Origin: Athalassotoga saccharophila | Lineage (GTDB): Bacteria; Thermotogota; Thermotogae; Mesoaciditogales; Mesoaciditogaceae | DNA: 64,000 nucleotides | Assembly: GCF_009936215.1 (NCBI RefSeq) | Contig: NZ_AP019551.1 | Span: forward strand, 1,822,708-1,886,707 | Direction of reading: 5' to 3' | Shown here: in pieces, positions 40,489 through 50,675 of the stretch | How the letters are laid out: each line of letters starts with the position of its first letter | Numbering within the stretch: position 1 is the stretch's first letter | The notes under the pieces: generated by a model | Seen by the model: only the letters and a program-made list of their open reading frames with translations | Databases searched by the model: none | Told to the model about the DNA's origin: nothing | Made by a program: the position numbers and the translations under genes

Positions 40489-40852
40489 TCAATAGCCGCA
40501 ATTTGGTATTATGGTAAATTGAAATGTAATCACGATTTTTCCCGGCGCGACCCACGATTCTATGCTTTTAGAAGCAAATATATCGAGTTCTCCTGAATAT
40601 TGATCTGAATCTTTTGGCTGTAATGTCAGTACATTCTCATCGTAATTATCGCTGTATTTGAGTATCATACCGTTTGGAAGACCTGGCGGATTTATTCCGG
40701 ATGTAAGACTGCCTCCATTAACACCTGTTGAAACGGTAACTGTTATTGTTGACATATTTGATTGGACAGCAAGTTTTGCAAGTAAGACCCTATCAGTATT
40801 ATAAGCATTTGTTAGAACATTCCCTGTTACACCAGAAAAAGAAGCATTGTAA
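40489..40852 (-). pseudogene. C-terminal half of a small secreted protein gene split by an IS element
   Basis: Codes for about 120 residues (from YNASFSGVTGN to FTIIPNCGY). It matches the C-terminal half of the intact paralogue at 49744: LAKLAVQSNMSTITVTV against LAELSVKSNMSTIGVTV, and a shared YSDNY and FTI-P-N ending. Its upstream part lies at 42697-43244 beyond the IS. Removing the IS and one 6-bp duplication rejoins the frame as ATATSYNASFSG, the exact family motif. Without its signal peptide this half should not be exported. Confidence 0.85.
40847..40852. repeat. Left target-site duplication (TTGTAA)
   Basis: TTGTAA directly precedes the IS left end and is repeated directly after the right end at 42697-42702. 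Confidence 0.88.
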
Positions 40853-42696
40853 CCCACTTTCCGCAGATAAAAAACAGTTTTTTGGATTTATTTGAAACTC
40901 ATGTTTTAAAATTGAAAGTGGGAAATGATTAGAGTCAGTAATAGCCAAAGAAGCATTTGCTGTAACCTTGACGCACATCACAAAGATTATACCACTATTT
41001 ACCGTTTCGGATAGAGTCCATTGATTTATGCCTTTCTGCTGCTATGATCTATTTGAAAAAGACAGCGGAGGTAGAAAAATGGAAATCACTACAAAGCAAC
41101 TTGATCACCATGGACTTGTGGCTGGGACATTTGATAAATTTGAAATGGGAGAGGTCATTGAAAAGAGAATACCGAAAGTCCGGAACTTCAATCTTTCAAC
41201 GTCTGCGATAATAAAAGCGATGATCATACTCGGGCTTGGTTTTGTTGACAGGAGATTGTACTTTGCAGGGAGTTATTTTGAGAACTGGGATGTTGAGAAA
41301 CTTTTAGGCGAAGGAACTAAACCGGAAGATCTTAACGATGACGCTCTCGGCAGAGTGCTTGACAAGATTTATGATTACGGTCCAACGGAATTATTTCAAG
41401 AGATAGCGGCGCACGCTTTGAACAAACTTGAAATGGATGTTCACCTCGTTCACACCGATACCACAAGCGTGAGTGTAAGCGGCAATTACGAGATGGAAGA
41501 CGGGACGAATGGTTTTAAGATCACCTTCGGTCATTCGAAAGATCACAGACAGGATTTGAAACAATTCGTGATAGGGATGGTTGTAAATCAGCATGGAATG
41601 CCGATGTTTGCCAAAACATACAACGGGAACGAATCGGATAAAGAGTCGATCAAAGAAATGGTCAAAGCAATCAGGAAGAACATTGACAAAGACAAGAAAG
41701 TCTATCATGTGGCAGACAGTGCTTTCTACACTGCGGAAAACATTAGCGAACTCAGAACAACATACTGGATAAGCCATGTGCCGTCTACGATAAAAGAGGC
41801 TGAAGAAATGCTAAATAAAGAAGTTGAATTTCGTCCGACCAAAATTGAAGGATATGAAGTGTATTCCGAAATAAGCAATTACGGCGGGATAAAACAAAAA
41901 TGGATAATGGTGAATTCGAAATATCTTAAAGAACAGGAACTGAAAACATTTGACAGGCATTTGAAAAAAAGCAAGACAGAAGCGGAAAAGTCATTGAAAA
42001 AGACTGTGACGAAAGAACGGTATTTTTGTTCTGAAGACGGAATAAACAAGTCCAGACAATGGATGGAAGCTCATCCTCTTTTCAAATACGACAAGTTTGA
42101 GATAAAGAGCGTAAGAGTCAGAACTGACGGGAAAAGAGGAAGGCCTAAAGATGGGGATCCGACGATAGAAATGTATGAAATAGATGCTGAGATAGGTCTG
42201 AATGAAGAAGCGGTTGAAAAGGCCAAAGCAAAACTCGGAAGATTCATACTTTCAACGAACGACATTGAACTTGAAGATGAAAAAGTGCTCGAATATTACA
42301 AAAACCAGACAACGGTCGAAAGAGGATTCAGGTTTTTGAAAGACAAAAGTTTCGGAGTAAGCGATGTGTATCTGAAAAAGCCCGGACGGATTCAGGCACT
42401 TGTGATGATAATGGTATTGACGTTATTGGTGTACTCGCTTTCGGAATGGGAAATAAGGCGCACATTGAAAGAGACAGGGCAAACATTTCCGAATCAGTTG
42501 AAAAAGCCGACAAACAGGCCGACATTCAGGTGGATATGTCAGAACTTCATGAACATAACCGTTGTAAATGTGGTTACAGATGGGCAAACAACCACACAGA
42601 TAGCGAATTTAAAAGATTTGCAGATCAAAGTGATAAGACTTTTGGGAGTTGAATATGAAAAATATTATTTCTGATCAAAGATGTGCGAAATGTGGG
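40853..42696 (+). mobile_element. IS1634/IS4-type insertion sequence, 1844 bp
   Basis: The element runs from CCCACTTTCCGCAGAT at the left to the inverted counterpart of CCCACATTTCGCACAT at the right; 13 of these 16 positions agree. It carries one transposase gene and is flanked by a 6-bp direct repeat TTGTAA. About 226 bases of non-coding DNA precede the transposase. The perfect duplication and intact transposase point to a recent insertion. Confidence 0.9.
41079..42674 (+). CDS. IS1634/IS4-type DDE transposase
   Basis: 531 residues from ATG 41079, which has GCGGAGG upstream. Acidic catalytic residues are seen as VHTDTTSVSV (near 127), VADSAFYT and YKNQTTVERGFRFLKD, the Y-x2-R/RxE-x6-K-like signature of IS4-related transposases. 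The RGRPKDGDP region before it is a typical spacer insertion of IS1634-like proteins. Full length with no frameshift, so it may be active. Confidence 0.87.
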   Translation: MEITTKQLDHHGLVAGTFDKFEMGEVIEKRIPKVRNFNLSTSAIIKAMIILGLGFVDRRLYFAGSYFENWDVEKLLGEGTKPEDLNDDALGRVLDKIYDYGPTELFQEIAAHALNKLEMDVHLVHTDTTSVSVSGNYEMEDGTNGFKITFGHSKDHRQDLKQFVIGMVVNQHGMPMFAKTYNGNESDKESIKEMVKAIRKNIDKDKKVYHVADSAFYTAENISELRTTYWISHVPSTIKEAEEMLNKEVEFRPTKIEGYEVYSEISNYGGIKQKWIMVNSKYLKEQELKTFDRHLKKSKTEAEKSLKKTVTKERYFCSEDGINKSRQWMEAHPLFKYDKFEIKSVRVRTDGKRGRPKDGDPTIEMYEIDAEIGLNEEAVEKAKAKLGRFILSTNDIELEDEKVLEYYKNQTTVERGFRFLKDKSFGVSDVYLKKPGRIQALVMIMVLTLLVYSLSEWEIRRTLKETGQTFPNQLKKPTNRPTFRWICQNFMNITVVNVVTDGQTTTQIANLKDLQIKVIRLLGVEYEKYYF

Positions 42697-42702
42697 TTGT
42701 AA
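42697..42702. repeat. Right target-site duplication (TTGTAA)
   Basis: Direct copy of the TTGTAA at 40847-40852, immediately after the GTGGG right end of the IS. Confidence 0.88.
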
Positions 42703-43244
42703 GATGTTGCGGTTGCTATATAGTTTTGATTTTTATATACGATTGTCAGATCTATAAAATATTTCCATACATTGGAGTCTTGTCCTGGATTTCCAGTTGC
42801 TAAAGTTATCACTTCATTGTAAGTTCCTGATGATGTTCCGACAGGTATATATATGGATATAAAAATGTTATTTGAAGTATTCGACGTGACTATTTTACTG
42901 ACAAAATTTTGACTGCTGGCCGTTGTCCACCAATTAAAATTACCGGGCAAAGCGTTATTAGGTAGTGTCAACTGAATCGTGGTCGTTCCAGATTTTGAAA
43001 TATTTACCGTTAAATAATAAGTACCCTTATCATGTATATTATTGTCTAAAACACTCACGCTTGATCCAAGATCCAAGAAATAATTCGTATTCGTAGAACC
43101 GAGTAATTGATTTTGCAAATTTTGACCAGGCGAATTGGAGTTGAAACTCTTTTGAATTTCTTCCTGTGCGTTAAGCCAGTTATCCCCAAAAGATAATATC
43201 GCCATAAGACTTATTAAGACCAAAAGTGCATATATTTTTCTCAA
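42697..43244 (-). pseudogene. N-terminal half of the IS-split secreted protein gene
   Basis: From TTG 43244 (GGGGTGG lies 6 bases upstream) a signal peptide RKIYALLVLISLMAILSFG leads into a beta-rich Ig-like module (GTYYLTVNISKSGTTTIQLTLP and IPVGTSSGTYNEVITLATGN), then YIATATSY, where the IS interrupts it. The remaining frame reads into the IS and stops after PHFAHL. This protein was the only family member with an extra N-terminal module of about 150 residues. The truncated product could still be exported. Confidence 0.82.
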
Positions 43245-43246
43245 AC

Positions 43247-44758
43247 TCAACCACCCCAATTCATTTCAAACTTGAAAGTGTTTGAAATCGGAGAATAAAG
43301 TACTCTCAAAATTTCTCCATAGTAAACTAAACCAATCGAACCGTAAAGATCGAAATTGTTACTTCCCGTCAATTGAATGTGATTGTATGAGAATTCTCCT
43401 CCCAAAACAAGATTGTCCATTTTGTATTCAAGATTTCCGTTGTATTGAAGATGAAAATTCGCCAGTGACGTTAAAGATGCGCTTACAGTTAAAACGCCAG
43501 AAGAGAGAAAATTCGACTTGAAATCAGGATATTGAACGAGTGCAATCTCTCCTTTGTAATTGTTGACGTTGGACAAATTCGAAAAGATAGGTCCTCCTAT
43601 CAAAAGATATCCCTGAAGTCCTATTGCAACCGGGCTCGATATGCCAACGTATATTCCAGATGGAATATTTTGGCCAGCGCTGATCTTAAGTCCAAAATGA
43701 TCGATATTTCCAAGGGCTTTGATTGTGTTATTATTTCCGTTGTAGTCCATAACAAGATTATATGTCCTTACTTTTGGGCCCATATCCATCAAAGTGAAAA
43801 TAGATGTTGAAGGAGCGCTTCTGACTGTAGAAACCGTAACTATGAAATTGGAATTTCCGCTTCTAAAAGAGGCAACGGCCATTTTATTATCCCCCACTGT
43901 GACCGTTGAATTCGTGTTGATCGTATAGGAAGGAGTACCCTGAACGGTACCCGAACTTACATTCTGCACCGATAGATTAAAATTAAGATTTGCCTGAGTC
44001 GCGCCAATTGAATTGACAAGCACATTCATGCTAAGACTGGAAGAGGGAAGATAATTTGCCTTGAATTGTATATTCTTTCCAGCACCTGCAAGCGCAAAAC
44101 CATTTCCCTCAAATTTCATGTAATTTGAGTATTTCTGAAAAAATTCAAAATTCGTGCTCTTAAATTGCCCCGGCATGATATAACTCGAGTAAAAGTCATT
44201 TTGCCACATGGCGTAATTGCTATTGGACATCGTATAAATGTTGTATACGACATAAACATTCGTTCCCGGAACATCGACCGATTTCACGGTTGACAAAACC
44301 TTTTCGTAAACGCTGTTCGGTCCAAAGAAGAAAAGATAAGGATAAGACTGTGCATACGTTATGTAGTTCGAATAAGGCTGCAAAAAGGCCATGACATTTG
44401 ATGACGAAAGATATTTAAGTTCTATTACACGTTCTGAATAACCGGCCGCTTTCATAGACATGGCAGACATGTTTGTTCCCACGAAGTAAACTCCATCGTA
44501 ATTGAAATAAAACAACCCGTATCCTTTACATATAGTTGAAAGTGCCTGATCCAAAGTCACATTGTTGAGATTCATCGTGATGTTGCCGCTTACAGTTGGA
44601 TCGACGACTATCGAAACGTTGAATGCCATCGATACATCTTGAAAAGCACTTTGAAGACTCTCCTGACTGAAAACGAAAGACGATGTCATGCCAGACGCGT
44701 AAGCCAAAACGGCAACGGAAATTAAAAGTGCAAGGGAAATCAGGATGATCTTTTTCAT
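43247..44758 (-). CDS. Divergent secretin-like protein with C-terminal extension
   Basis: 503 residues from ATG 44758 (GGGG 6 bases upstream). A signal peptide is followed by an STN domain (FSQESLQSAFQDVSMAFNVSIVVDP then NNVTLDQALSTICKGYGLF), an N1-like domain and a region parallel to the next protein (VYVVYNIYTMSNSNYAMWQNDF against IVVQVNVLEMDKSVLDSWNMSL). The secretin signature VPLLGDIPLIGxLF is missing, and about 170 extra residues of beta structure end in KFEMNWGG. I read it as a paralogue of the adjacent secretin that lost the channel lip and gained a new domain. It may be a co-assembling or adaptor subunit. Confidence 0.7.
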   Translation of the reverse strand: MKKIILISLALLISVAVLAYASGMTSSFVFSQESLQSAFQDVSMAFNVSIVVDPTVSGNITMNLNNVTLDQALSTICKGYGLFYFNYDGVYFVGTNMSAMSMKAAGYSERVIELKYLSSSNVMAFLQPYSNYITYAQSYPYLFFFGPNSVYEKVLSTVKSVDVPGTNVYVVYNIYTMSNSNYAMWQNDFYSSYIMPGQFKSTNFEFFQKYSNYMKFEGNGFALAGAGKNIQFKANYLPSSSLSMNVLVNSIGATQANLNFNLSVQNVSSGTVQGTPSYTINTNSTVTVGDNKMAVASFRSGNSNFIVTVSTVRSAPSTSIFTLMDMGPKVRTYNLVMDYNGNNNTIKALGNIDHFGLKISAGQNIPSGIYVGISSPVAIGLQGYLLIGGPIFSNLSNVNNYKGEIALVQYPDFKSNFLSSGVLTVSASLTSLANFHLQYNGNLEYKMDNLVLGGEFSYNHIQLTGSNNFDLYGSIGLVYYGEILRVLYSPISNTFKFEMNWGG

Positions 44759-44759
44759 T

Positions 44760-45914
44760 TTAATCCCCTGCCTTTTCAACTGTTATAACCACCACGATCT
44801 CTTTTTCAACTTTTACAACGTTTTGCTGGGTAAAAAGAAAGCCTATCAAAGGTATATCTCCAAGTAATGGTACCTTGGAATTTTGAGTTTGATAAGTCTG
44901 AAAATTGGCCCCTCCAACTGCCACCGTATTACCAGCCTGTGTTGTAAAAGAGGTTGTCAATGTGTTGGTTATCGTGTTTGGTACACCGGAAGAGGTTTGC
45001 TGCTGCGATGCTCCTGTTAAGGTTTCTGTCAAATTCACAAGCACAACGCCTGAGGCAGTTATCGTTGGAGTTACAGAAAGGTTTATCCCTACCGGCACGC
45101 TCAAAGTCTGCTGACCTGTTGATGTTGTATAGAGATAAGTTGTGGTTGTCACTGAATTCACAGTTCCCGTTTGTCCGCTTTGAATTCTGAGTTTGGGATC
45201 TGCAAGCATCTTTATCTCTCCATTTGAGACGAGTGCATTTATATTGGAGAGTATCGAAAGGTTATTTATTATGAATGCTGCGTTTATCGCTCCGTTAAGT
45301 ACGTTGAACGTTGTGCCGTTTGAAGAATTCGACGGCTGCGAATACTGCAAACTCATATTCCAACTGTCGAGGACAGATTTGTCCATTTCGAGCACGTTAA
45401 CCTGTACGACGATGTCTTTGGGAGGAACATCAACTGATTTTATCAAGGATATGATGGATGATTTTATACTGTCAGGCGCACCTATCATGATAAGGTAAGG
45501 AGAGGTGGTCGAAGAAAAGACATAAGGCTGCATGATTGCCGGCAGATAACTGAAAAGCGTCTTCGAATTTATGTATTTCAATTGATACGGTGTCATCTGT
45601 GCGAGGTAAAGAAAACTATTCGTTGCCGGGTTTGGAGTTCCTACGAAATAAACACCAGGCTGGATCTCTTTCCATGCGTATCCTCCCGACATGAGCATAA
45701 GGTTTAGCGCTTGAGAGATGCTCACATTGTTAAGGTTAAGCGTTATAATACCACCTATCGTCGAATCTGTAAGTATCGTTATACCCTCCTGAGTCGCGAG
45801 ATCGTTTAAGGCCTGTGTGAGTGGTTCTTGAAAGAAAGATATAGTTACATTCTGGGCAAAAACGGCAGATATGACTATAAAGATTATAAAAGAAAGCACC
45901 ATGAATTTTTTCAT
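44760..45914 (-). CDS. Compact secretin (type II/IV pilus family outer-membrane channel)
   Basis: 384 residues, much shorter than GspD or PilQ. Signal peptide (KKFMVLSFIIFIVISAVFA), STN domain (VTISFFQEPLTQALNDLATQEGITIL), one N1/KH-like domain (about 85-160), then the secretin core with SGQTGTVNSVTTTTYLY, AGNTVAVGGANFQTY and the hallmark KVPLLGDIPLIGFLFTQ. Secretins form multimeric gated outer-membrane channels. It follows the Ig-like protein by 14 bases and is part of the sigma-54 operon from 48102. No secretion ATPase or platform protein is in the window. Confidence 0.87.
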   Translation of the reverse strand: MKKFMVLSFIIFIVISAVFAQNVTISFFQEPLTQALNDLATQEGITILTDSTIGGIITLNLNNVSISQALNLMLMSGGYAWKEIQPGVYFVGTPNPATNSFLYLAQMTPYQLKYINSKTLFSYLPAIMQPYVFSSTTSPYLIMIGAPDSIKSSIISLIKSVDVPPKDIVVQVNVLEMDKSVLDSWNMSLQYSQPSNSSNGTTFNVLNGAINAAFIINNLSILSNINALVSNGEIKMLADPKLRIQSGQTGTVNSVTTTTYLYTTSTGQQTLSVPVGINLSVTPTITASGVVLVNLTETLTGASQQQTSSGVPNTITNTLTTSFTTQAGNTVAVGGANFQTYQTQNSKVPLLGDIPLIGFLFTQQNVVKVEKEIVVVITVEKAGD

Positions 45915-45928
45915 TCTATCCCCTCTTC

Positions 45929-47488
45929 TCAGTTAATCTTTTGCTGTACAGAAACGGTTGCCGTATTTTTGAAAGTTTGATCATTGAAGTAGTACATGAC
46001 GAGTCTTACAGTATAGCCCTTTGAAACCTTGAACGGTAATGTCATAGTTCTGTAAACCGTTGCACCTGAGTACAAAATACCGATATTCAATATCGCAGGT
46101 GAACTATTAACAGCATGATCTGTGGCGTCCGTTATGAAGATCTCACCAGCGTAATAAGTCATCGAATTTCCGGTATTTTTAACGTCTACTGATATATCAA
46201 CATTCGATCCGTCAGGAGTAACTTTAAAGTTTTCAAGGGCAATAGATTTAGTCAACTTTCCAACGGACAAGATGATTGGGATCTCCACCGTTGTTGCCTC
46301 TCCTCCAGAGACAGATTCATTTAACTTTAAAAGCGCATAATATTCCCCGCTTGCAGGAGCAGTCGAAGGACCTTTTCCGGCAATGACGACATTTCTGATC
46401 GAATAAGGATACAAAATCATAGGATCGGGATAAACCTTTAAATTCCCAAACAAATTCTGATCGAGTGGCGCCTCCACCACAAGACCTTGATAAGATTGTT
46501 TCATTCCGACCAATTCGAATTTAACATTCGAAATCCTGTAGTCAAGACTTTGAATGTTGAAATTCGCATTAAGAAAGGCATTCGGAACCTGAAACGGTAT
46601 GTTTATTATATATTTATCCGTACTCAAAAACGGGAATGGGCTTATCTTCTGATCTGTAACCTTCATGCTGAAACTTTGGCTTGTCATGATGCCATTTCCA
46701 AGATTTGCGGAAAGCAAAATTCTGTAATCCCCATTTGGAACAATTCTGTTGATTGGAATCCATATCGTTCTTGTTATGCCCGGAAAGGCAAGCGTTTCCT
46801 GCCTTGCGAGGCTTGTAGCGTAAACAATCTGATGAAGTGTATCTGATACAAGTCTAAACTGACCATCGAGTCCTATAACGGAATTTCCAGTGTTGGTGTA
46901 ATCCATCTCGAGAACGTAAGGTATACCAGAATTTTTAAGGCCGCTTGGGAAATTGGACGGTAAATTTTCTGAAGTGGTGCTGTAGAGTTTAACTCCTTTG
47001 AACTGCGCCTGATAGGTCATAGGCATGTTATCTATTTTAAGAGTTATAAGGACTGCCGTATTCACCCCGACTATTATGTTGCCAGTTTGATTGGGTGCAG
47101 TGTTATTTATAAGTATCGTTGCAAAGTATTCTCCCGACACGTTAGATGGAATGGTTATCGTGAAAGGCACCTGAATAGTTTGACCGGCACTGATTACAGG
47201 AGCCGTTGATGGAGTCGTTATCCAAGGTGCGCATGAATGGGTGTAAGATGCAAAGGTTGTCATACTGTAATTTCCATTCGAATCAATGTAAAAATCTCTA
47301 AAGGCAATAACGGCTGTCAATTGCACATTAGATTGATTTGTTATCGATGTATTAAAAGTTATTTGACTTCCAGGAGCACCATGCAAATTCTCTACAAGAG
47401 GCGTAACGTAAAGACCTCCTATGGCAAAAGAGATAAAAGGGACAAAAAACAAAACAATGAAAAACCCCAAAATATGCTTTAAATTCAC
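45929..47488 (-). CDS. Large secreted protein with Ig-like (NEW3/chaperone-like) repeats
   Basis: 519 residues from GTG 47488, chosen because AGGAG lies 5 bases upstream. A signal peptide (ILGFFIVLFFVPFISFA) precedes GGLYVTPLVENLHGAPGSQITFNTSITNQSN, which looks like the first strand set of PapD-chaperone or DUF916-type domains. Further Ig-like units follow: IPSNVSGEYFATILINN, LEMDYTNTGNSVIGL and VDISVDVKNTGNSMTYYAG. No C-terminal anchor is present. It may hold or escort the small secreted proteins or line the periplasm for the secretin; function is inference. Confidence 0.65.
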   Translation of the reverse strand: MNLKHILGFFIVLFFVPFISFAIGGLYVTPLVENLHGAPGSQITFNTSITNQSNVQLTAVIAFRDFYIDSNGNYSMTTFASYTHSCAPWITTPSTAPVISAGQTIQVPFTITIPSNVSGEYFATILINNTAPNQTGNIIVGVNTAVLITLKIDNMPMTYQAQFKGVKLYSTTSENLPSNFPSGLKNSGIPYVLEMDYTNTGNSVIGLDGQFRLVSDTLHQIVYATSLARQETLAFPGITRTIWIPINRIVPNGDYRILLSANLGNGIMTSQSFSMKVTDQKISPFPFLSTDKYIINIPFQVPNAFLNANFNIQSLDYRISNVKFELVGMKQSYQGLVVEAPLDQNLFGNLKVYPDPMILYPYSIRNVVIAGKGPSTAPASGEYYALLKLNESVSGGEATTVEIPIILSVGKLTKSIALENFKVTPDGSNVDISVDVKNTGNSMTYYAGEIFITDATDHAVNSSPAILNIGILYSGATVYRTMTLPFKVSKGYTVRLVMYYFNDQTFKNTATVSVQQKIN

Positions 47489-47517
47489 TTTCTCTCTCCT
47501 CTCATTTATGCTCAAAA

Positions 47518-48102
47518 TTATCTGTTAAAAACTATATTTTGAGTATTTCCGTAATTCGTTATGAATTGGCCAATATTCTCGTAAAGCACCGTAAATTCAA
47601 CCGGAACCGTGTATTGAGATCCCTTAGTCCACTGTTCGACCTGAGAATTAAGCGCTTCGACGTTAACGTTCAGCGTGTAATAACCATGATCGCTTTTGGA
47701 TAAAGTCGAAACAACGACAAAATAAATGTTGTTTAAATAGTAAGCCGAATTGTAAATCTGGCCATTACTTTGTATATCCGAATTTGACATAAAACTCATC
47801 ACATTTGATTTATTGACATTTACGTATACAAAGATATTTTGAAAGTTCAATTTTATGTTGAGCGTTGCAAGTGTTACGAGGAAATCTGTGTTTATGTTCA
47901 TCGCAGGTATTATCGGATCAAAAGCAACCGGATGAACAGAGGTGCTAAGCGCTGTTGTCTGAGCCTCCATGCATGGCATTACTTCCACAACAGAGGTAAC
48001 GCTTAAGGACGATTTATAACATTCCTCTGCCGTAATTGTGCTATTTGCAAAGATTACAGATGAAGTAAAAATGATCATAATCAATACTATTATATTTTTC
48101 AT
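47518..48102 (-). CDS. Small secreted protein of the local paralogous family
   Basis: 194 residues from ATG 48102 with AAGGAGCG upstream. A signal peptide (KNIIVLIMIIFTSSVIFA) precedes EECYKSSLSVTSVVEV, which aligns with ATCQQASLSVNSMIGI of the 49039 and 49744 proteins. Residues LVTLATLNIKLNFQNIFVYVNV match their LLAELSVKSNMSTIGVTV strand pair. It is first behind a sigma-54-type promoter whose predicted start lies about 26 bases upstream. Confidence 0.65.
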   Translation of the reverse strand: MKNIIVLIMIIFTSSVIFANSTITAEECYKSSLSVTSVVEVMPCMEAQTTALSTSVHPVAFDPIIPAMNINTDFLVTLATLNIKLNFQNIFVYVNVNKSNVMSFMSNSDIQSNGQIYNSAYYLNNIYFVVVSTLSKSDHGYYTLNVNVEALNSQVEQWTKGSQYTVPVEFTVLYENIGQFITNYGNTQNIVFNR

Positions 48103-48139: not shown

Positions 48140-48155
48140 AGCAGTATTCATGCCA
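48140..48155 (-). promoter_or_regulatory. Sigma-54-type promoter (-24/-12) for the secretin operon
   Basis: Minus strand TGGCATGAATACTGCT: the GG at -24 and GC at -12 have the required spacing, with one change from the TTGC consensus. It lies 38-53 bases before ATG 48102, and paired half-sites lie about 80-120 bases further upstream. Confidence 0.75.
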
Positions 48156-48198
48156 AAATCTTAATTTTTTTTGACCACGATTTTTCAACCATACAAGC

Positions 48199-48221
48199 AA
48201 AAAATTCCTGAGATTCAGGAA
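48199..48221 (-). terminator. Terminator of the 48288 gene
   Basis: TTCCTGA / TCAGGAA 7-bp stem with a 3-base loop, followed on the minus strand by TTTTTT. Confidence 0.72.
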
Positions 48222-48234
48222 CGAATAAATCATC

Positions 48235-48275
48235 TTGGGAACTAATGATGCAAAATATGTCTCTATAGTTCCCAA
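48235..48275. promoter_or_regulatory. Paired activator half-sites upstream of the secretin-operon promoter
   Basis: TTGGGAACT (48235-48243) and AGTTCCCAA (48267-48275) form perfect 9-bp inverted arms separated by 23 bases, about 80-120 bases upstream of the -24 element. The same half-site recurs at 50549 and 50601. The position is that of an enhancer site for a sigma-54 activator. Confidence 0.72.
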
Positions 48276-48287
48276 ATGAATTTTTAT

Positions 48288-48851
48288 TCAATAATAATTA
48301 TGTGGAATTATCACAAATGTAAAGGCGAGGTTGTCATTCTGATCAAATTGTAAGGCTTTTGTAGAGGCAACGTAGAGATAACCACTGTGCCCGGTCTTAC
48401 CCGTGCTAAATGGAAGATCGAGAATCGATGGAGGATTGTCCGTCCTTATGTCATATACAGAATTTCCTGAAATGTTGGGGTAATAGTAAGATATATCCCT
48501 GATATTTGATTGATTCGAGATAGAAATAGAAATTCCTATAACAGAGGTCGCATCAGATTCAACGTTAAGACCGGCAAGGACAACAAAATTTTTTATGGAA
48601 TCAAAGCAATTTCCATTGTAAAAAATATCAATCAATATTTTATTGAATATATCAGGTAAGGTTGAATTAAAAACAGTTGCAGTCGCCAGAAATCCCTGAT
48701 CCATATAAAAATTTGGATCGTAAAGATGAGGAACTTCATTTTCAGTCTTAAAAGTAAGTTTTCCTCCTTCAAAAACCGGCCCCATGTTATCTGCCAAAAC
48801 AATCATAGAAAGTGCAATCAAAGATATTATAATCACGAGAATTCTTTTCAT
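48288..48851 (-). CDS. Small secreted protein, divergent family member
   Basis: 187 residues. Signal peptide (KRILVIIISLIALSMIVLA), then MDQGFLATATVFNSTL, which corresponds to IEQGYVATATSYNASF of the paralogues. A central strand pair FVVLAGLNVESDATSVIGISISIS and a C-terminal LAFTFVIIPHNYY complete the pattern. It ends in an aromatic residue, as do most of the family. A weak sigma-54-like site lies just upstream. Confidence 0.62.
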   Translation of the reverse strand: MKRILVIIISLIALSMIVLADNMGPVFEGGKLTFKTENEVPHLYDPNFYMDQGFLATATVFNSTLPDIFNKILIDIFYNGNCFDSIKNFVVLAGLNVESDATSVIGISISISNQSNIRDISYYYPNISGNSVYDIRTDNPPSILDLPFSTGKTGHSGYLYVASTKALQFDQNDNLAFTFVIIPHNYY

Positions 48852-49038: not shown

Positions 49039-49692
49039 TCAGAATGTGTTCTGAGGACTTATCAAAAAAGTTGTTCTTATATAATAATCGCCAGGCTTCA
49101 CGAACTCTCCCCAGTGTGTATCATACGTATCAAGAACTACGTCAACTGCACCTACATAATAAGACGAAGTAGGCAATAGATTAACTAAAAAGGTAAGCGC
49201 CTGTGGAGCAGATGAAAAGTTCCCCGTTCCCAAAAGGTTATTACTGGCATTGTTATTATAGAATATATAGTAAGAGGAATAATTCGATAGTAACGACCCA
49301 GATGCGTTGGAGGGTTGTGTTATAGTTATTGTAACATTTATATTTTGAGCATTTGATTTAACTGTCAACTCAGATATCAGGATCCCCTGATTGATTGACA
49401 AACTATCATATTGTGTATACTTACCATTTATCAATCTTTGTGAGATCTCTGGACCAGTTGTACAATTACATATTGGACATGGAGCGCCGCAGAATGAAGC
49501 ATTATAAGACGTAGCAGTGGCCACATAACCTTGCTCAATACCTATCATAGAATTAACAGATAACGAGGCTTGCTGACATGTTGCCCCTTGAGTTGCTTGT
49601 TTGTAATATCCTGCGGTATTTGCCAACGCCATGACACCTAACGCCAACATCGCAATTACAATGAGAATCAAAATCTTCTTCGTTACGATCAT
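49039..49692 (-). CDS. Small secreted protein, duplicate of its upstream neighbour
   Basis: 217 residues. Signal peptide (KKILILIVIAMLALGVMALA), then a segment nearly identical to the 49744 protein (ATCQQASLSVNSMIGIEQG and YVATATSYNASFCGA), then a diverged C-terminal part with an added Cys-rich PCPICNC stretch and GILISELTVKSNAQNINVTI. It ends TTFLISPQNTF. The unchanged N-terminal third with a changed C-terminal part suggests duplication followed by divergence or partial conversion. Three cysteines close to each other could bind metal or form disulfides. GAGGGGAG precedes ATG 49692. Confidence 0.75.
   Translation of the reverse strand: MIVTKKILILIVIAMLALGVMALANTAGYYKQATQGATCQQASLSVNSMIGIEQGYVATATSYNASFCGAPCPICNCTTGPEISQRLINGKYTQYDSLSINQGILISELTVKSNAQNINVTITITQPSNASGSLLSNYSSYYIFYNNNASNNLLGTGNFSSAPQALTFLVNLLPTSSYYVGAVDVVLDTYDTHWGEFVKPGDYYIRTTFLISPQNTF
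49484..49594. repeat. Duplicated segment, copy 1 (111 bp)
   Basis: Identical over 111 bp to 50078-50188. It encodes the conserved mature N-terminal part of the two tandem secreted proteins. Similarity continues with a few changes to the start codon, then stops abruptly on the 3' side of the genes. Confidence 0.88.
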
Positions 49693-49743: not shown

Positions 49744-50277
49744 TCAGAAATTATTTTTAGGGGTTATTGTGAAAGTTGTTGTTACTTGATAAGTGCCGGC
49801 AGTAACCCATTGAGGAATTGAAGATGGCGCGTAAACTTCAAGAGTACCTTCATAAGGTGTATTTGGGTATCCACCATTTTGAAGAGTTAGACTTCCATTA
49901 GAGTAATTATCGCTATAATTTATGTAAGAACTTAAAGAATAATTTGAGAAGTTGGGGAAATTACTTGAAAATGCAACCGTAACACCTATAGTAGACATAT
50001 TTGATTTAACGCTGAGTTCGGCCAAGAGCACTTGACTATTCAGGCTCACGTAATGTCCTGTCAATGGATTTCCACTTGCGCCGCAGAATGAAGCATTATA
50101 AGACGTAGCAGTGGCCACATAACCTTGCTCAATACCTATCATAGAATTAACAGATAACGAGGCTTGCTGACATGTTGCCCCTTGAGTTACTTGTTCATAA
50201 TATCCTGCGGTATTTGCCAACGCCATAACGCCTAACGCCAACATCGCAATTACACCAAGAATCAGAACTTTTTTCAT
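49744..50277 (-). CDS. Small secreted protein, first gene of the sigma-54-controlled locus
   Basis: 177 residues. Signal peptide (KKVLILGVIAMLALGVMALA), then the family core: ATCQQASLSVNSMIGIEQG, YVATATSYNASFCGA, LLAELSVKSNMSTIGVTV, a YINYSDNYSNGSLTLQ stretch and the ending TTTFTITPKNNF. All beta-rich and small, so a secreted structural subunit is plausible. Not a prepilin, as no G-FxxxE site is present. It has its own consensus sigma-54 promoter, a leader of about 147 nt, GGGAGG before ATG, and a terminator directly after, which suggests the highest expression of the locus. Confidence 0.75.
   Translation of the reverse strand: MKKVLILGVIAMLALGVMALANTAGYYEQVTQGATCQQASLSVNSMIGIEQGYVATATSYNASFCGASGNPLTGHYVSLNSQVLLAELSVKSNMSTIGVTVAFSSNFPNFSNYSLSSYINYSDNYSNGSLTLQNGGYPNTPYEGTLEVYAPSSIPQWVTAGTYQVTTTFTITPKNNF
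50078..50188. repeat. Duplicated segment, copy 2 (111 bp)
   Basis: Identical to 49484-49594; the two copies are 594 bases apart. Confidence 0.88.
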
Positions 50278-50547: not shown

Positions 50548-50609
50548 TTTGGGAACTGACAAGACATCTTAGGATCGATTGTTCCAGTAACGTCGCATCC
50601 GTTCCCAAA
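50548..50609. promoter_or_regulatory. Shared activator sites between divergent sigma-54 promoters
   Basis: TTGGGAAC (50549-50556) and GTTCCCAA (50601-50608) are inverted half-sites, with a third partial GTTCC at 50581. They lie between the minus-strand promoter at 50435 and the plus-strand promoter at 50660, at enhancer-like distances from both. The rest of the 446-bp intergenic region holds no gene I can support. Confidence 0.7.
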
Positions 50610-50659: not shown

Positions 50660-50675
50660 TGGCATGAAACCTGCT
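50660..50675 (+). promoter_or_regulatory. Sigma-54-type promoter for the degenerate activator gene
   Basis: Plus strand TGGCATGAAACCTGCT keeps the GG/GC spacing and shares TGGCATGAA and CTGCT with the secretin-operon promoter. It lies 48 bases before ATG 50724, which has AGGAGGAATTC as ribosome binding site. Confidence 0.75.

Follow-up and report, generated by a model that had tools for sequence, protein, structure and literature searches.

A putative three-site sigma-54 enhancer at a secretin and pilin-like gene cluster of Athalassotoga saccharophila

Results

In a 64,000-nucleotide stretch of the Athalassotoga saccharophila genome, referred to here as the window, two elements, R1 (in the 48140-48275 region) and R2 (50549-50608), are best explained as three-dimer-site sigma-54 enhancers (UAS) that are bound by the activator P0002 and serve three promoters, P1, P2, and P3; from the sequence evidence below we consider this explanation very probable. 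We hold with equally high confidence that the GGAAC sites within these elements represent a conserved landing pad for a sigma-54 activator, with three sites placed 20 bases apart.

The genome encodes sigma-54 (rpoN, PF04552 match E 9.2e-48), and a TGGCA-N7-TGC promoter element is present at 48155 (minus strand), 50450 (minus strand), and 50660 (plus strand), two of the three being conserved in the sister species (G001). P1, TGGCATGAATACTGCT (48140..48155, minus strand), is an exact -24/-12 match to TGGCAY-N5-YTGCT directed toward the secretin operon. The -24/-12 promoter P2, TGGCACACATCTTGCT (50450-50435, minus strand; TGGCACGGATGTTGCT in G001), which was absent from the preliminary description of this DNA, is directed toward the pilin-like gene at 50277, a long distance of about 170 bp away, and P3, TGGCATGAAACCTGCT (-24/-12, 50660..50675, plus strand; TGGCATGAAACTTGCT in G001), is directed toward a two-regulator operon. 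R2 lies between the divergent P2 and P3, so that two enhancers would serve three promoters. Genome-wide, TGGCAY-N5-YTGCT has 11 strong matches, compared with 3 for a reversed-pattern control, and only P1, P2, and P3 among these 11 have an upstream cluster of GGAAC/GTTCC. No such cluster was found upstream of the eight other strong sigma-54-like sites, one of which has a lone GTTCC; these sites were thus ruled out as sharers of the enhancer, and, at the stringency of these searches, the regulon appears to be confined to this locus.

The preliminary description had placed perfect inverted 9-bp half-sites about 100 bases before the secretin-operon promoter, and had taken their recurrence at a second promoter as support for a real activator-binding site and a small regulon. 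The half-sites are exact: TTGGGAACT (48235-48243) and AGTTCCCAA (48267-48275) form a perfect inverted pair, of 10 bp if the next base is included. The pair lies 80-120 bp upstream of the minus-strand -24/-12 promoter (48155-48140), and the same exact pairing recurs at 50549-50608. Scanning the 2.04-Mb genome for TTGGGAAC-N20-50-GTTCCCAA recovered these two places only (48235-48275 and 50549-50608) and 0 for the reversed-pattern control, so the motif does not recur at random positions with the same frequency; with a gap of 5-35 bp allowed, shuffled versions of the window contained 0 paired motifs. An activator site with a small regulon therefore remains well supported at the sequence level, given that the elements are unique in the genome, lie beside sigma-54 promoters, and are conserved in the sister species in one of the two cases, with rpoN present. 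The geometry of two inverted 9-bp half-sites did not hold up; five relatives show a grid of three dyads instead. The start-to-start spacing of the two 8-mers is 33 bp in the 48140-48275 region and 52 bp at 50549-50608, so they are not the two halves of one fixed palindrome. A single inverted repeat with a variable spacer is ruled out by this spacing together with the relatives. Additional half-sites that had been overlooked, GGAAC at 48218-48222 and GTTCC at 50581-50585, lie in register with the others.

In R1, read on the minus strand with centres measured from the -24 G of P1, the distal site A, GGAACTATAGAGAC (48259..48272, centre -110), has one perfect half (5/5) and a weak partner half; site B, GCATCATTAGTTCC (48238..48251, -89), has halves of 3/5 and 5/5; and site C, TGATTTATTCGTTCC (48218..48232, -69.5), has halves of 2/5 and 5/5. 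R2, read on the plus strand toward P3, comprises site A, GGAACTGACAAGAC (50552..50565, -101), and site B, GGATCGATTGTTCC (50572..50585, -81), a 9/10 dyad, both conserved in G001, together with site C, GTCGCATCCGTTCC (50592..50605, -61), whose good half is GTTCT in G001; read from P2, the site centres of R2 fall at about -148/-128/-108. Both elements fit GGAAC-N15-GGAAC-N24/25-GTTCC, which occurs exactly 2 times in the genome, and a looser pattern (GGAAC-N13-17-GGAAC-N22-30-GTTCC) also gave 2 genome matches, both at this locus, and 0 for the control. The triple-site score upstream of each of P1, P2, and P3 was 22/30, a value reached by 0/400 dinucleotide shuffles (400 shuffles per test throughout); for P2, the best-scoring triple is in a shifted register, tied at 22/30. 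Since the window elements sit on the three-dyad grid of the relatives, the perfect 9-mers would be the good halves of different dimer sites, which explains their unequal spacing at the two places. Most sites in the genome of the window have only one good half, and the strength of the sites is accordingly uncertain.

Read in promoter orientation, R1 and R2 can be aligned site by site, an extra AGACAT block included, which suggests that the P1 enhancer-promoter unit may be a copy of the P3 unit; as possible duplicates, the two elements are not fully independent evidence. AGACAT, which is unlike a GTTCC half, adjoins the perfect site A half in both elements (48254-48272 and 50552-50567) and in G001. 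The good half of R1 site C overlaps the stem of a putative intrinsic terminator of the pilin-like gene at 48288-48851 (48204..48222, minus strand; an 8-pair stem followed by a T run), and its GGAAC could have that origin. Terminator-like sites occur in this 3.4-kb region in a number expected by chance, so the support for the terminator at 48204-48222 is mainly positional.

We compared ten genomes of the family, consisting of this genome (G000), its sister (G001), and relatives that are mostly draft MAGs. In the divergent region between the regulator and pilin-like genes of G001, R2 is 72% identical and both promoters are 75-77% identical, while the spacers flanking the element are 43-49% identical; the triple-site scores in G001 were equalled by 1-3/400 shuffles. 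In five relatives (G004, G005, G006, G007, and G009), the same cluster has a sigma-54 promoter with three near-perfect tandem dyads upstream of it, of the form GGAAC-N4/5-GTTCC, each 14-15 bp long with a period of 19.5-20 bp, centred at -112 to -114.5, -92.5 to -94.5, and -73 to -74.5 (score 26-29/30, 0/400 shuffles each; the G007 array has the same sequence as L066). A scan across the ten genomes found a single copy of the dyad array in each of these five and in no other genome; the other matches were one look-alike sequence common to G000, G003, and G004, which we take to be coding. At P1-P3 and in the five relatives, dyad activator sites thus lie upstream, about 60-150 bp from the promoter, and score above all 400 shuffles, and three phased sites with a period of about 20 bp precede the promoter in eight elements from seven genomes. 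Three tandem dyads, as seen in the five relatives, were probably the ancestral form. The organism is a member of the Thermotogota, and the named records in which the cluster occurs are MAGs under the labels Mesoaciditoga, Mesoaciditogaceae, Thermotogae bacterium, and Thermotoga sp. SulCav.

P0002 (51935..53281, plus strand; 448 aa) is the likely binder of the three-site enhancers. It has the features of a complete sigma-54 activator (EBP): a receiver-like N-terminal domain, an AAA+ domain (Pfam E 2.4e-49) with the Walker A and B motifs GETGTGK and FLDE and a GAYTGA loop, and a Fis-type HTH (HTH_8, 3.4e-6). Its structure model likewise shows a receiver-like N-terminus, with a fold matching NtrX/NtrC1/NtrC4. 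Orthologs of P0002 adjoin the cluster in relatives, and the recognition helix LGI(S/T)xRYL(N/S)K(L/I)I is kept in 7/7 aligned proteins; a search of the named genomes with P0002 alone gave no match. The P0002-type EBP, the cluster, and the operator are all present in G000, G001, G004, G005, G006, G007, and G009 (the EBP of G007 being an N-terminal fragment at a contig end, and the operator and EBP of G009 lying on different contigs), and all three are absent from G002, G003, and G008 in the ten-genome comparison.

The same genomes contain a paralogous cluster that has its own EBP type, with the helix LSxSRxTIDNM(I/V), and whose promoters carry three GGAAA-N4-TTTCC sites (GGAAAG/CTTTCC) at the same spacing. 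That the layout is shared while half-site and helix both differ provides good, if indirect, support for the pairing of EBP and operator. Loci of this paralogous sigma-54 cluster with the three-site array include L092 around 3460 (G000:C1:873459) and G000:C1:220692, and the paralogous EBP is encoded near its cluster in several relatives and distant from it in this genome.

The first gene of the regulator operon encodes P0001 (50724..51842, plus strand; 372 aa), a degenerate EBP paralogue. Pfam Sigma54_activat covers only part of its domain, and it lacks the features of a sigma-54 activator, with a deletion across the GAFTGA loop and no recognition helix in either of the two aligned orthologs; Walker B is likewise altered in both, reading FIEE in the window protein. 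An ortholog of P0001 was found only in G001, and comparison of the two (pN 0.22, pS 0.73) indicates purifying selection. Without a GAFTGA loop and recognition helix, the only roles left to P0001 would be those of non-catalytic partner, modulator, or inhibitor; our guess is that this protein, co-transcribed with P0002, probably tunes the ring as a non-catalytic partner.

The gene content points to a regulon in which P2 would drive the pilin-like genes, P1 the secretin operon, and P3 the regulators. Three small exported pilin-like genes (48288-48851, 49039-49692, and 49744-50277, minus strand) share a signal-peptide-like N-terminus and sequence similarity, the last of them lying directly downstream of P2. 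A near-identical stretch of ~140 bp is found in two of these neighbours (49491-49634 and 50079-50222), the remainder having diverged, which suggests recent duplication or gene conversion. The secretin operon begins with a gene for a small exported protein (47518..48102, minus strand; start probably the ATG at 48102, 194 aa), whose G001 ortholog is 58% identical, and its remainder (42675..47515, minus strand), conserved in gene order in G001, encodes an Ig-like exported protein (45929-47515), a secretin (44760-45914; Pfam Secretin E 4.3e-29), an STN-domain protein (43247-44779; Pfam STN), and, as its last gene, an exported protein cut by an IS element (42675-43259). The 45929-47515 product is large, exported, and found family-wide, with weak matches to Ig-like or WxL-interacting domains and no solved-structure relative detected by sequence search; it may serve the secretin system as a chaperone or a surface component. 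The last gene of the operon appears to have been interrupted by the IS element (40845-42706; DUF4277 and DDE transposase, 41028-42674): the parts on either side, 42675-43259 and 40489-40857, correspond to a single uninterrupted 317-aa ORF in G001 (L043:14043-14996). In G001, a pilin-like gene is followed by the secretin genes with no extra promoter between them; in the window, extra pilin-like genes and the terminator intervene, and the secretin operon has a second enhancer-promoter unit in front of it.

Discussion

Each element would, under the explanation that we favour, hold three dimer sites of consensus GGAAC-N4/5-GTTCC on one face of the DNA with a 20-bp (two-turn) period, and would have its centre some 60-150 bp ahead of a -24/-12 promoter. 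Three P0002 dimers bound side by side would seed one hexameric AAA+ ring, which DNA looping would bring to sigma-54 RNA polymerase, and the GAYTGA loops together with ATP hydrolysis would then open the promoter. Because P3 would drive the regulator operon itself, we infer positive autoregulation in addition to activation of the other two promoters.

Previous work provides a close parallel in Escherichia coli, where three enhancer sites in the norR-norVW intergenic region are reported to be essential and to act as a scaffold for the NorR hexamer (PMC2941729). The three enhancer sites upstream of a sigma-54 promoter are a shared feature, and NorR is the best NCBIfam model for P0002, although the score of 232 is below the cut-off of 476. 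Unlike NorR, P0002 has a receiver-like N-terminus in its model rather than GAF, the recognition sequence here is GGAAC-N4/5-GTTCC, and its targets would be secretin and surface genes in place of NO detoxification. By analogy, P0002 may work like NorR, yet is not NorR, and a NorR-type assembly would be the most economical reading of the mechanism. In its receiver-AAA+-Fis HTH order and fold, P0002 resembles the group 1 activators NtrC1, NtrC4, and NtrX, but the usual phosphate-accepting Asp is not apparent in its receiver-like domain in our reading of the alignment, so that phosphorylation may not be the signal.

Several other readings of these elements merit consideration. The perfect 9-mers are paired at both places, as would suit an inverted repeat of two half-sites (TTGGGAACT ... 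AGTTCCCAA) occupied by a single activator dimer or by two dimers joined through looping; we nevertheless judge this reading very improbable, as the spacing differs by 19 bp between the places, further half-sites lie in register at both, and five relatives have three full dyads with a 20-bp period. A different sigma-54 activator could bind the sites in place of P0002, since the genome encodes at least four other canonical EBPs; this is also improbable, considering that the P0002-type EBP, the cluster, and the operator are jointly present or absent across the ten genomes, and that the nearest paralogue differs in its recognition helix and its cluster in the half-site. EBPs of the P0002 class are, moreover, often autoregulated from an adjacent enhancer. 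We give hardly any credence to the possibility that the 48140-48275 element is incidental, a combination of the terminator or RNA structure of the pilin-like gene with chance half-sites: the terminator-like hairpin at 48204-48222 does overlap one half-site, but the only other occurrence of the three-part pattern is at the P2/P3 pair of sigma-54 promoters, and R1 and R2 align site for site down to the AGACAT block. A terminator or RNA element was rejected as the sole explanation, as the hairpin overlaps site C and leaves sites A and B unexplained.

A final reading, in which a heteromer of P0001 and P0002 reads the enhancer, would refine the P0002-bound three-site enhancer and does not exclude it; we regard it as unlikely. 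A site with one perfect half and one weak, partly conserved half (e.g., AGACA) suits a dimer in which one HTH is intact and the other degenerate. The two genomes that alone encode P0001, G000 and G001, have asymmetric sites, and the five genomes whose sole EBP of this type is complete have full dyads. The purifying selection on P0001 is also consistent with such a role. Weak halves are nonetheless seen in the arrays of the paralogous cluster, which has no degenerate partner, and, G000 and G001 being sister species, the link between P0001 and asymmetric sites amounts to one evolutionary event. A mixed P0002/P0001 ring to which the enhancer has adapted, with formerly symmetric dyads now read by one DNA-binding and one non-binding subunit, is therefore a rather doubtful, minority interpretation. 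Paralogous activators acting jointly, with hetero-hexamers reported or proposed, are described for HrpR/HrpS of Pseudomonas syringae and VnfA1/VnfA3 of Azotobacter vinelandii (PMC9542535); P0001, unlike these, has lost both its GAFTGA loop and its recognition helix. EBP descendants that are independent of sigma-54 and carry small deletions have also been discussed (PMC3162934), and P0001 resembles them in having a deletion, located in the sigma-54 contact region, while differing in being encoded together with a complete partner and in having no usable HTH.

Sigma-54 has been reported from only some Thermotogae (PMC3162934), and our literature search on its use in Mesoaciditoga found no paper. 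The enhancer appears, from its distribution in the genome, to control only one gene cluster, encoding an outer-membrane secretin pore and small exported proteins, and this cluster would amount to a compact regulon whose rules are easily read: a single activator and a single half-site, with three dimers per enhancer. The paralogous cluster, with GGAAAG in place of GGAAC, another helix, and equal geometry, offers a natural specificity swap that is directly testable, and the retained, degenerate P0001 may provide a simple system for examining how inactive subunits tune an AAA+ ring.
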